Shown here piece after piece: positions 42,985 to 47,198 of a stretch of DNA of 64,000 nucleotides. The translations under genes were made by a program, and so were the position numbers. The stretch is from Hyphomonas sp. Its GTDB lineage: Bacteria > Pseudomonadota > Alphaproteobacteria > Caulobacterales > Hyphomonadaceae. The stretch spans positions 248,001 through 312,000 of the forward strand of contig WGNP01000003.1 of NCBI GenBank assembly GCA_016124495.1, read 5' to 3'. Below the pieces are notes generated by a model that was not told the origin of the DNA, searched no databases, and saw only the letters and a list, made by a program, of their open reading frames with translations. Numbering within the stretch: the stretch's first letter is position 1; each line of letters begins with the position of its first letter.

Positions 42985-43525
42985 TTGCCTGCTGACGAAT
43001 TTTCAGAACTGTGGTGCCGTGACCATCACGATCCGAAACTCGGTGTTTCTTATCGGTGCGTGCACTTCAGCGCCGTTTTGAATGCCGTCAGGCGCTGACC
43101 GGTTTCCCCAGATCAGGACCTGATTGGCCAATGAACCGGATTCGTTTGACGCCCTGGTTTCCAGAGACACTCTCGAAGCATTGGGCTGGCTCAGAAATGC
43201 GTCCACTCGCTACAAAGGATCCGAGCGATATCCGGTAGTGGGCGCGATTTCCCGCCAGTTCTTAGATGCGGACCGGAGGACTTCTGACACCCGCGAACTG
43301 GAAAAGCCCTTGGCTATTCAAGACCGGCTTAAGCTCGGATATCCGGGCGACCCCCCCCCTGGACAGACTGAGCCGGCGAAGCTTCGCGCAGAGCAGGGCG
43401 GGATCAGCTTCCGCCCGCCCTGGCTGGCGGCATCAGGAACGGCGGGACGACATCCCACCCTGCACCTCACGCAACCTTAACCCCTGCCTGCCATCTCTGG
43501 CCCCAACGCGAAGGAGAGCTCCCAG
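42985..43525. other. Intergenic stretch after uvrB, no confident gene
   Basis: 541 bp. Short open frames exist on both strands (for example a TTG-started frame at 43124-43480 and a minus-strand frame at 43003-43206), but none has a ribosome site or a recognisable motif. A run of nine C is at 43351-43359. The end of the stretch must hold the promoter of the small gene at 43526. Confidence 0.45.
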
Positions 43526-43825
43526 ATGTGGATTCACCGCAAGGAACATTTCCGCAATGCCAGCGGCGCGCCGGAGCGCTCCAGGGTCGCCGCCACGGTC
43601 TACTACCTCCCCGACACCGCCGAGCCCCCGCCCCGCCAGGGCTGGGACGAGCGCTGCCCCCAGTGCAGCGCCGCCATCCGCGTCTCCCGCCCCCGGCACG
43701 GCGGCACCGCGATCAGCGAAATCCTCCCCTCCGGCCGCCTCATCCCCCACCCCTGCTTTGACCGCCTCCGCGGCAAACGCCCCAGCGACGAGACGATGGA
43801 CCTGTTCGAATGGACCCCGAAATAG
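43526..43825 (+). CDS. Small conserved-looking protein with zinc-ribbon-like Cys motif
   Basis: 99 residues with a strong ribosome site (AAGGAGAG) 11 nt before the ATG. The middle has ERCPQCSAAIRVSRPRHGG (CxxC at about residues 44-47) and a later HPCFDRLRG, so a partial metal site is possible. The third codon position is very GC-rich, as in real genes here. I do not recognise a family. Confidence 0.6.
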   Translation: MWIHRKEHFRNASGAPERSRVAATVYYLPDTAEPPPRQGWDERCPQCSAAIRVSRPRHGGTAISEILPSGRLIPHPCFDRLRGKRPSDETMDLFEWTPK

Positions 43826-43925
43826 TCCGCCTGCGGACCATCGCCCCTGCTGCGCCGCACCAATTCCACACCGCGTCTTAAATCTGTGAAATTTATCCCC
43901 CGAAAAGCGAATCACCCCCTCGACT

Positions 43926-44540
43926 CACACCAAAATTGGTGAGATCGTTGCGTCAAGCCAACGAAATCCCGGCGGGAGACAACCCGCAAAGTGGAGCGAA
44001 GGCGAGCCCATCGCCCCCATGAAGAGGGCCGGGCCAGGAGCAAAGCCGGGAGACCGGGCGCGCAAAAGGCCAGGCAGGACGCACGGGATAAAAACAGGCG
44101 ATGGCCCATGGCAGCGGGAGCTAGACCCGCGAGATGGGAGCCGTACGCCGTAACCGGGGCGCAAACCCGAACTACGGTGGCCAAGAGCCCGAAAGCTCCA
44201 CCAGGGAGCATGAAGAAGAACTGCGCCCGCAAGGGCACAGAACGACCAAATGCGACCAACGGTGAAGCGCCAGAGATGGGCGGGAAAAGCGGCCAAAGCC
44301 CCTGAACTGTAAGCGGCCCCCCGGCCGCGAGCGGACTCAGGGCAACGCAAAAGGAGCGTGCGCCTGCCAGGGCGAACGTCCAGATGCGGAAGGGTTATGG
44401 AAGGGCCACGTCAGTGGGCCGGAAAAAACCCGGTGTCTCCGAAGAGCGTCTCCGAGTGCTAGCACTAGTAATCGGTAGCCCGATTCGAAACACCATGGAA
44501 GGCGCGGCGCCCTTCAAAAGGCACCGCGCCTTTCTTTGTT
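43926..44540 (+). ncRNA. Candidate large structured RNA of unknown class
   Basis: About 600 nt with no convincing reading frame on either strand. The plus strand is purine-rich between many short perfect stems: GCGGG/CCCGC at 43973-43986; CCCAT-4-GCGGG-7-CCCGC-3-ATGGG at 44105-44137; GCCGTA/TACGG around a CGGG/CCCG stem at 44148-44178; GAGC/GCTC at 44185-44198; a GCCCCTGA/TCAGGGC stem enclosing GCGGCC/GGCCGC at 44298-44343; GTGCTAGCAC at 44457-44466; ATCGG/CCGAT at 44471-44484. It ends in an intrinsic terminator. RNase P, tmRNA, SRP and 6S signatures are absent. The 5' end is a guess; a CTCAC(A)CCAA/TTGGTGAG repeat lies at 43924-43943. Confidence 0.5.
44499..44537 (+). terminator. Intrinsic terminator ending the candidate structured RNA
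   Basis: Stem AAGGCGCGG (44499-44507) with its perfect complement at 44524-44532, a smaller GCC-TT/AAGGC stem inside, then TCTTTG. Oriented to stop plus-strand transcription coming through the hairpin-rich region. Confidence 0.75.
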
Positions 44541-44543
44541 GTG

Positions 44544-44573
44544 AAAAAGCCCCCGGCGCAACGCGCCAGAGGC
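44544..44573 (-). terminator. Intrinsic terminator of the tiny minus-strand gene
   Basis: On the minus strand GGCGC/GCGCC with 3-nt loop, extended by GCC/GGC after a short mismatch, followed by TTTTT. It lies 10 bp after the stop of the 48-residue frame at 44584 and faces the terminator of the plus-strand candidate RNA. Confidence 0.6.
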
Positions 44574-44583
44574 CTCTCCATCA

Positions 44584-44730
44584 TTACCCGGAAGCCCAGT
44601 ACCCGGCCTTCCGGGCGCAGTGTTCCGCCTCGCTGAGGTCGCCGCCCGCATCGGTGCGATGCTTCGCCGGCTTCTCGGCCGTCATCTCCGGCTTCGCCGC
44701 CTGGATTTCCGCCAGCGCGCCCCCTGCCAC
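44584..44730 (-). CDS. Tiny ORF, unknown protein
   Basis: 48 residues from GTG 44730. The sequence is protein-like and soluble (LAEIQAAKPEMTAEKPAKH, then DLSEAEHCARKAGYWASG). A GGAG lies about 10 nt upstream. The adjacent downstream terminator in the right direction supports a real transcript. The start could lie further upstream, since the frame stays open. Function unknown. Confidence 0.4.
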   Translation of the reverse strand: MAGGALAEIQAAKPEMTAEKPAKHRTDAGGDLSEAEHCARKAGYWASG

Positions 44731-44831
44731 TCCGCGCCGTCTCCGCTCCGCGCCGCCCAACTCCGCCGTAAGCCCTTTTCAAGTGCGTGAATGTTTCTTC
44801 GCTATGCGGGTCCCGGAGGGCTCCGCCCGTG

Positions 44832-44867
44832 AAAAAACCGCCCGCACGCTTGTGTGGGCGGTTTTTT
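44832..44867. terminator. Bidirectional intrinsic terminator
   Basis: A 16-bp stem: AAAAAACCGCCC pairs with GGGCGGTTTTTT around a GCAC-GCTT-GTGT hairpin. Six A on one side and six T on the other make it work both ways. On the minus strand it is 22 bp after the stop of the lipoprotein gene at 44890, whose natural terminator it is. Confidence 0.85.
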
Positions 44868-44889
44868 GACTCCCGGGAGGGAGGAAGGC

Positions 44890-45492
44890 TTATGGCGAGA
44901 CGGGCGCCATCGTCACTTCAGGCTCTTTGGCCGGGGCTTCGACCGGAGCGGCCTCTTCGCCTTCAACCAGCGAGTCCGCCGGTTGCGGCACCGAGCTCGC
45001 CGTGCCGCAGCAGCGCACCTGCATCTCGAGGACGCGGTCGTTGAAGCGGCATTGCCGGTCGTTGATCTCGCGCAGGATCGAGGGGCCACCGGCGCGGTAG
45101 GTGTAGCGCGTCTGGTTGCAGCTGGTCAGCGTATAGCCTTCGCGGCAGGAGCCGACGTTGCTTTTCTGCACGGTGGTGGTCTCGCAGACCATCGTGTCGG
45201 CCAGCGCCGCTTCGGCTTTTGCCATCGCGGCGGCGGCATCGGCCCTAGCCGAGTCTGCCGTGGCCTGTGCCTCGGCCGTCAGCTTCAGGGCATCGGCCAG
45301 TCGCATGTCGGTCGACGCGAGCGCGGTGGACGTGCCATCAATCTCGACTTTCAGGCGGCAAACGTTCTCGTCCGCCTTCTTCGGGTTGGCGCAATACTCC
45401 GCAACGGTCATCTCGTTTGGAATGTTCATACACGCGGAAACACTCAACGCGGCAAGCAACAGCCCGCCAGAAAGGAATTTCGTGAACTTCAT
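44890..45492 (-). CDS. Lipoprotein with coiled-coil and Cys-rich region
   Basis: 200 residues. Signal with lipobox ending in Cys21 (LSVSAC). Residues about 50-100 are Ala-rich heptad-like helix (LADALKLTAEAQATADSARADAAAAMAKAEAALADT). Then a Cys-containing domain (MVCETTTVQKSNVGSCREGYTLTSCNQTRYTYRAGG and QCRFNDRVLEMQVRCC) and an acidic Pro/Ala tail. No known family recognised. The coil suggests oligomers or cell-wall contact in the periplasm. Confidence 0.75.
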   Translation of the reverse strand: MKFTKFLSGGLLLAALSVSACMNIPNEMTVAEYCANPKKADENVCRLKVEIDGTSTALASTDMRLADALKLTAEAQATADSARADAAAAMAKAEAALADTMVCETTTVQKSNVGSCREGYTLTSCNQTRYTYRAGGPSILREINDRQCRFNDRVLEMQVRCCGTASSVPQPADSLVEGEEAAPVEAPAKEPEVTMAPVSP

Positions 45493-45606
45493 ATGGGTTC
45501 TCCATCACCTCTGACCGGGGGCATTTTTACCTCCCCCCAAGCCGGATGACGCCGAAATGTGGCGGAAAATGAGCAGGAAGGCCGATTGGGGAGATTCTGG
45601 CAGATC

Positions 45607-46618: not shown

Positions 46619-46667
46619 AAGCGCACCCGGCGACGGGACGTGCCCTGAGATGCGGGAGACTTCCAAT

Positions 46668-47198
46668 ATGTCGTGGAACGACGAGCGGGTGAACACCCTC
46701 AAGAAACTCTGGGCCGAGGGCCATTCAGCCTCCCAGATCGCCAAGCAGCTGGGCGGGGTCACCCGCAACGCGGTGATTGGCAAAGTCCACCGCCTCGGCC
46801 TGTCGGGCCGCGCCACCCCGTCGCGCCCCGTGAAGCGCCCGCCGCGCCTCGCCCGTCCGAAGCCCCGTTTCCTCGCAGATGGCACGATCGCCGCAGCCGC
46901 GCCGGCCGTCCCCGCGCCGTCCCTGCCGGTCCCGGCCCTCGCAATCGAGCGTGTTACGGCGATCAAGCCTCTGCCCCCGCTTCTGGTGGACGGCACACCG
47001 GCAACGATCCTCACGCTGCGCGACACGATGTGCAAATGGCCGATCGGCGACCCGGCTGACCCGAAATTCGCCTTCTGCGGCCGCAAGTCCGACTGCGGCC
47101 CCTATTGCGCCGAACACGCCCAGGTTGCATTCCAGCCTGCCCGCAAGCGGGAAGCGCGCAAATCGGAATATGACTACGTCAGGCGGATTGCCGGCTGA
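46668..47198 (+). CDS. gcrA: Cell-cycle regulator GcrA
   Basis: 176 residues from ATG 46668 with GGGAG 9 nt upstream. N-terminal HTH (MSWNDERVNTLKKLWAEGHSASQIAKQLGGVTRNAVIGKVHRLGLSGR), a Pro/Ala-rich linker, and a C-terminal domain with MCKWPIGDPADPKFAFCGRKSDCGPYCAEH. GcrA binds sigma70-RNA polymerase and activates promoters holding GANTC sites methylated by CcrM. A mark of Alphaproteobacteria with Caulobacter-type cell cycle. Confidence 0.96.
   Translation: MSWNDERVNTLKKLWAEGHSASQIAKQLGGVTRNAVIGKVHRLGLSGRATPSRPVKRPPRLARPKPRFLADGTIAAAAPAVPAPSLPVPALAIERVTAIKPLPPLLVDGTPATILTLRDTMCKWPIGDPADPKFAFCGRKSDCGPYCAEHAQVAFQPARKREARKSEYDYVRRIAG

Follow-up and report, generated by a model that had tools for sequence, protein, structure and literature searches.

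A family of large structured non-coding RNAs in the Hyphomonadaceae with a self-complementary loop and a putative GcrA/CcrM promoter

What does a hairpin-rich stretch of bacterial DNA encode when it ends in a terminator and holds no evident gene? The question arose in a 64,000-nt segment of a Hyphomonas sp. genome (contig WGNP01000003.1; hereafter the window), in which a first-pass annotation, made from the letters alone, had marked positions 43926–44540 as a candidate large non-coding RNA. On the basis of blastn searches, alignments and a covariance model, we report that the plus strand from about 43955 to about 44537 (both ends are approximate) almost certainly encodes a large structured non-coding RNA that represents a new family in the Hyphomonadaceae. 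Most of the originally marked span is thus upheld, but its beginning (43926–43954) looks like promoter rather than RNA. The molecule is a large, ornate bacterial RNA that belongs to no known family; it is conserved by common descent, has covarying helices and its own covarying terminator, and is not tied to one neighbouring gene. The reading that we favour, with moderate confidence, is that of a free-standing, probably dimeric scaffold RNA whose synthesis would be timed by GcrA and CcrM.

Structure and conservation of the RNA

The plus strand of the locus folds with a predicted energy of −270.9 kcal/mol (z −5.65 against 20 shuffles) and the minus strand with a z of −4.22 against shuffles. Because both strands fold better than shuffled sequence, folding energy alone does not prove an RNA, and the case is decided by comparison, that is, by compensatory change and conservation. 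The alignment shows conserved ends and a middle region (44181–44421, plus strand) whose length differs between species. The RNA is about 580 nt long in the window and about 300–750 nt in the other homologues. The middle region holds the stem GCCCCTGA...TCAGGGC around GCGGCC/GGCCGC (about 44298–44343), which, like the stem CCCAT/GCGGG...CCCGC/ATGGG near 44105–44137, had been picked out in the first-pass annotation; both are borne out by the sequence. At two loci of one genus (L105:8194-8362 and L106:461-629) the RNA looks much shorter: the terminator finder placed a terminator no more than about 250–280 nt from where the 5′ domain starts, and GATTCG is missing from the 650 nt that follow.

The conserved 5′ domain (44004–44180, plus strand; 39 pairs over 172 positions in covariance models R1 and R2) covaries in alignments of 35 and of 56 sequences. 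The smaller alignment (A1), a plain MAFFT alignment fitted to no structure and the one on which R1 was built, shows two-sided changes at 22 of the 39 predicted pairs; the 35-row set omits L038, which lies at a contig edge and has the 3′ end only, and L051, whose 3′ end is cut. In the larger alignment (A2), which keeps L051 as a truncated row, standard pairs fill 96.1% of the cells (79.3% in shuffles), 32 of the 39 pairs have two-sided changes (21.0 in shuffles) and 359 cells carry them (109.7 in shuffles), with none of 500 shuffles reaching any of these values; because A2 was fitted to the structure of R1, its figures lean towards the model. Sliding the structure along A2 by 1–3 columns leaves 34.6–40.8% paired. 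Pairs are therefore kept by two-sided changes beyond both the shuffled and the slid controls, as in a structured non-coding RNA, and covariation among Hyphomonadaceae is strong. The G-U wobbles identify the plus strand as the RNA, one pair, for example, reading U-A in 30, U-G in 19 and C-G in 6 sequences.

Within the domain, the hairpin CCGG-GAGA-CCGG (44046–44057, plus strand) has a helix that is 100% paired in the 55 sequences with letters there and a GNRA-type tetraloop that reads GAGA or GAAA (rows read by eye). Two helices of the 56-sequence alignment make up a strongly conserved hairpin with CCGUAACCGGGGCGCAAACCCGAACUACGG (44147–44178, plus strand). A terminal helix proposed by RNAalifold (5′ GUUUCG, 3′ CGAAAC) was dropped, its 5′ strand lying in the −10 region and the helix failing in some sequences, the window's among them.

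The 3′ end comprises a conserved element (44433–44495, plus strand; 21 sequences), with GATTCGAAACACC at 44482–44494, and an intrinsic terminator with a covarying stem (44498–44540, plus strand; terminator scan and alignments). This is the terminator that had been read from the letters, and we find it at 44498–44537; one of its stem pairs is G-C in 11, A-U in 10, C-G in 9 and G-U in 3 sequences and unpaired in 2. For terminators we used the alignment, because the automatic finder worked in 21 of the 56 sequences, among them L066 with a plainly wrong hairpin. A tandem repeat of GTCTCCGA, described in the same annotation, is real, with copies at 44435 and 44448, but among the 22 alignment rows listed it is confined to the window and the sequences closest to it. 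A second terminator-like hairpin followed by a T run stands at 44847–44866, between the RNA and the next gene.

The view that the segment holds no plausible coding frames needs amending, since mechanical open reading frames are present (104 aa on the plus strand, 141 and 115 aa on the minus strand), but none of them is conserved. These three frames are free of stops in just 7, 2 and 6 of the 35 sequences, respectively, and their lengths agree modulo 3 in 8, 16 and 20 of the 35. A 42-aa frame is stop-free in 21 of 35 sequences, with lengths agreeing modulo 3 in 7 of 35; five open reading frames that overlap the RNA, this one not among them, have no Pfam match. By frame conservation and Pfam, there is no conserved protein on either strand.

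Ornate folding and size recall OLE, ROOL and GOLLD, and the RNA might belong, as a divergent form, to one of the known classes (RNase P RNA, tmRNA, 6S, SRP, an intron, OLE, ROOL, GOLLD, HEARO or raiA). We regard this as extremely unlikely. Rfam 15 at gathering thresholds gives nothing in the window, with no match to 6S or SRP RNA there, and the loci of six relatives yield tRNAs alone. A sensitive scan (E up to 5) returned four small-RNA models (sau-5971, CC1840, ncS025 and NsiR1; E 0.14–3.2, far below their own thresholds), all of them where the 3′ end and the terminator lie. The OLE, ROOL, GOLLD, HEARO and raiA families, which we take to be among the 4227 Rfam models scanned, gave no covariance-model match in the window, in the sensitive scan or at the six relatives' loci. 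As the annotation had supposed, the RNA is neither RNase P RNA nor tmRNA, of which the genome has copies at other sites (310.5 and 243.7 bits). With no Rfam family at threshold, no conserved protein and strong covariation, its reading of the segment as a large non-coding RNA, possibly of an undescribed class, is upheld. The promoter elements, the self-complementary loops and the distribution had escaped that annotation.

Distribution and genomic setting

A blastn search with positions 43900–44545 against 101 genomes (the window's own and 100 relatives) matched 38. Among the 42 Hyphomonas genomes listed, 37 have a match, G038 by 63 bases at a contig edge; a 34-base match in a genome of another family (G092) was taken as chance. 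With R1, 105 genomes of the family were searched and 56 gave a full-length match, one of which a contig end truncates; the matches fall in four genera: 36 in Hyphomonas, 17 in a second genus, 2 in a third and 1 in a fourth. There is at most one strong match per genome, a second match in G035 having an E of 0.022. Over 398 genomes of the order, R1 gave 51 matches; 50 belong to the family, and the remaining one has an E of 0.034. Few candidates were scored per genome in this search, which missed G112 and G114, two family members found in the search of the 105 genomes. Over 385 genomes of the class, R2 gave seven matches, two of them in Hyphomonas and the other five weak (E 7e-4 to 0.015), with about 7.7 chance matches expected at E 0.02. 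With laxer filters, R2 gave one match (E 0.022) in 40 genomes, 39 of them from other families of the order, and two (E 0.045 and 0.078) in 29 chosen family members. We rejected the weak matches from these order-wide, class-wide and laxer-filter searches as chance-level.

In five Hyphomonas genomes (G002, G003, G015, G025 and G029), neither blastn nor R1 nor the more sensitive R2 search finds the RNA. A search with R2 within 1.5 kb of their uvrB found nothing real (best E 0.51, 8 bits). In four of these genomes, no TCGACTC, TCCACAG or L1 loop was seen in the 4.0–4.5 kb after uvrB. Because 5 of 42 Hyphomonas genomes do without it, the RNA is dispensable and can be lost. At three of these loci (L178, L179 and L180, from G002, G003 and G025) the DNA after uvrB looks unrelated, with a ParA-like gene in L178 by eye; the site after uvrB may take up foreign genes.

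A promoter-proximal pattern occurs in 21 named stretches, 11 titled Hyphomonas (including H. johnsonii and H. polymorpha), 3 Hyphomonadaceae and 7 otherwise (for example, Rhodobacterales, Alphaproteobacteria and Acidobacteria MAGs), several of these 7 being genomes filed under the same genus as the window. Strain CY54-11-8 also carries the pattern. No phage or plasmid record matched by blastn, and viral contigs scanned with one Hyphomonas-type pattern gave no match; on these grounds, and given the single strong match per genome, we rejected the idea of a mobile or phage RNA. The RNAs of four loci from genomes of another genus (L099–L102) cluster with Hyphomonas RNAs in the tree, suggesting possible horizontal transfer of the gene; two of them (L101 and L102) have a longer stretch ahead of the 3′ element. 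Among the results listed by searches of the open-access PMC literature, none reports this RNA.

In the window, uvrB (NCBIfam UvrB, 1038 bits) lies upstream of the RNA, and a gene for a 200-aa protein without a family match, an ABC-2 permease gene and gcrA (Pfam GcrA, 167.7 bits) lie downstream. Neighbours were compared at 48 of the 56 loci, several of which are cut by contig ends, and the protein cluster of the window's uvrB is present at 24 of the 48, mostly in Hyphomonas. In a second clade the RNA has other neighbours. The position downstream of uvrB in many Hyphomonas genomes would suit a cis-regulatory leader or the 3′ untranslated region of a neighbouring gene. Against this, the RNA has promoter elements and a terminator of its own, the downstream gene differs between clades and is sometimes possibly on the other strand, and at L113 the RNA adjoins hisI-like and PilZ-like genes (named by eye), all of which makes such a cis role highly improbable. 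The RNA remains recognisable although the genes around it differ, so that action in trans is probable.

Transfer RNA genes stand near the RNA at 4 of 28 loci (scanned along with the window). At three, tRNA-Tyr and tRNA-Gly lie about 200–550 nt upstream on the same strand (L103:6954-7185, L104:5706-5938 and L107:5675-5867), and at L108 the tRNA genes are further from the RNA. In one complete genome, the RNA is at 0.307 Mb, about 0.4 Mb from the GC-skew minimum near 0.7 Mb, a coarse estimate from 20 samples 175 kb apart. Its place away from this minimum does not support a replication-origin RNA like CcnA.

Promoter and candidate cell-cycle control

Upstream of the RNA, a −35-like element, CTCGACTC (43919–43926, plus strand), holds GACTC, a GANTC site for CcrM, and a −10-like GATCGT (43943–43948, plus strand) follows 17 nt after TCGACT at a position that is conserved, by eye, in the alignments. 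The same arrangement of TCGACT and −10-like element recurs in relatives (by eye), and we infer that transcription starts near 43955. A plain sigma-70 consensus scan of 43000–45500 returned no promoter. CGACTC is found in 54 of the 56 homologues and missing from 2, at −110 to −55 from the 5′ domain; the frequency of GANTC in the homologue loci is about 1.9 per kb. An own promoter and terminator are very probable.

Further upstream lies an inverted repeat, TTCCACA..CTGTGAA (43864–43890, plus strand), the core of which resembles DnaA boxes. The inverted pattern TYCACA..TGTGR occurs upstream in 48 of 56 homologues, as against 0.7% of mononucleotide shuffles.

The window's CGACTCA reads as YGAKTCG on the other strand, and YGAKTCG is described as the extended motif of GcrA (PMC7987155). 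The motif is present on one strand in 40 of the 56 homologues, at −100 to −60 from the 5′ domain, and its full form is missing from the other 16 promoters. A GANTC site within the core promoter, together with the recurrence of CGACTC and YGAKTCG, places the promoter among those of GcrA/CcrM type by motif, and control of the RNA by GcrA and CcrM is, on these motifs, probable. Since the putative −35 carries a CcrM site that matches the extended motif of GcrA, the level of the RNA probably follows the cell cycle; judged from sequence, expression could follow GcrA, CcrM or DnaA. The gcrA gene itself (46650–47198) lies about 2.1 kb downstream of this RNA whose promoter carries the GcrA/CcrM motif.

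Self-complementary loops, a proposed function and known systems

Hairpin L1 (CGGG-AGCUAGA-CCCG; 44115–44129, plus strand), with its CUAG core at 44121–44124, is a putative homodimer kissing loop. The loop measures 6–8 nt. Judged by a mechanical rule, the four bases at its centre are self-complementary in 53 of the 56 sequences; of the 18 distinct loops, 15 have this property. CUAG is the commonest core; UCGA replaces it in L066/L067 and L101/L102, CCGG in L099/L100 and AGCU in L105/L106. Three sequences (L057, L104 and L117) are non-palindromic by the rule, L117 having CUAG in another register. On a tree built without the L1 columns, the switched cores form four groups, of which L099/L100 and L101/L102 are sisters and so may share one step. 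Four palindromes among six or seven changes have a P of 2e-4 to 6e-3, counted by lineage and with one or two frames, supposing that a changed core is random; because the loop was picked after inspection, the figure supports the case without proving it. Palindromes also occur at other columns, in as many as 42 of 56 sequences, with at most two sequences there bearing a different one.

The second self-complementary site is the 10-nt palindrome GTGCTAGCAC (44456–44465, plus strand). All 35 Hyphomonas sequences have GUGC-NN-GCAC, with UA at the centre in 29 and AU in 6, so that the site alternates solely between GUGCUAGCAC and GUGCAUGCAC; among the 19 non-Hyphomonas loci listed, L118 alone has the full palindrome (by eye). 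Because adjacent bases cannot pair within one hairpin, the patterns at L1 and at the 3′ palindrome point to contacts between two copies of the RNA. In OLE L9.3 and GOLLD L21a, switching between palindromes has been interpreted as kissing between molecules (Kretsch et al., PMC12286853). The L1 loop of our RNA covaries in the same symmetric way, with the exceptions and the post hoc choice of loop given above, and we lean slightly towards a homodimer or oligomer on this sequence pattern.

Two other readings of the loop have to be weighed against contacts between copies. The RNA could be a genuine large structured RNA that acts as a monomer, regulating by base pairing or protein binding, with the palindromic loop a protein site or a product of chance. 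The large raiA motif, described as monomeric (PMC12286853), is a precedent; the self-pairing of L1 is weak in a plain duplex calculation (−4.0 kcal/mol), three loops are non-palindromic, and other columns are often palindromic. A protein site, however, would be expected to keep its sequence, whereas the L1 core has been replaced by other palindromes in four groups and the 3′ palindrome changes solely by inversion of the adjacent UA/AU, and we hold the monomer to be rather unlikely. In the other reading, L1 would pair intramolecularly with the CUAG that the 3′ palindrome contains. When the columns of the full-length Hyphomonas alignment are compared as partners for L1, the loop itself comes first (34 of 35 sequences) and the 3′ palindrome next, complementary in 26 of 35 but following neither of the two switched loops; moreover, it switches to CAUG while L1 stays CUAG. 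Such a contact is therefore disfavoured and, we think, quite improbable. Three further columns fit in just two of the 35 Hyphomonas sequences, the two with switched loops, and in the 5′-domain alignment no column outside the L1 loop fits more than two of the eight switched sequences.

Taken as a dimeric scaffold, the RNA would work as follows. It would be transcribed from its own promoter, with a CcrM methylation site in the −35, and its level would then, with fair probability, follow the cell cycle. The CUAG of L1 would form a symmetric kissing contact between two RNA molecules, and in Hyphomonas the 3′ palindrome could, by a slight preference, provide a second intermolecular contact, giving a dimer or a higher oligomer. 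Acting in trans, the RNA would serve as a structural scaffold, by itself or together with protein, and would be neither a cis leader nor an antisense regulator; the scaffold role is a tentative proposal. Some large bacterial RNAs solved lately are RNA-only dimers and cages (PMC12286853). More speculatively still, the family could stand for a new class of ornate chromosomal RNA that forms homo-oligomers and is made in step with the CcrM/GcrA cell-cycle methylation clock; it would build an RNA-only or RNA–protein particle once per cycle in stalked budding alphaproteobacteria.

Few bacterial RNAs of such size are known, and the Hyphomonas family adds one that is present in named isolates (H. johnsonii and H. 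polymorpha). It comes with a covariance model, with loops that vary in nature yet stay self-complementary and with natural knockouts (5 of 42 Hyphomonas genomes), and its promoter motif suggests when the RNA is made. With these at hand, what large self-associating bacterial RNAs do becomes directly testable.

Comparison with known systems places these features in context. With GcrA/CcrM-dependent promoters the RNA shares a GANTC site in the promoter and, in 40 of 56 homologues, the YGAKTCG motif (PMC7987155); it differs in that 2 of 56 have no CGACTC and that its dependence on GcrA and CcrM is putative. CcnA, a cell-cycle non-coding RNA of Caulobacter, is likewise an alphaproteobacterial RNA tied to the CtrA/GcrA circuit (PMC8959179), a tie that we infer for the present RNA; CcnA is described as 182 nt long and inside the replication origin (PMC8959179), whereas the RNA here is about 580 nt long and about 0.4 Mb off the coarse skew minimum. 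GOLLD and ROOL are, like this RNA, large and have symmetric kissing loops, which are putative here. GOLLD is described as often near tRNA islands, and here too tRNA genes are near the RNA at 4 of 28 loci. GOLLD is also described as encoded by phages and prophages, whereas here blastn found no phage or plasmid copy and viral contigs scanned with one Hyphomonas-type pattern gave none. The ornate large extremophilic (OLE) RNA is about 600 nt long. The Hyphomonas RNA differs from it in having no Rfam match at threshold, in being seen in Hyphomonadaceae alone and in showing no fixed partner gene. The two are alike in their ornate, covarying stems and similar size, and also in a loop, L9.3 in OLE, that switches between palindromic tetranucleotides, OLE being described as an RNA dimer (PMC12286853).
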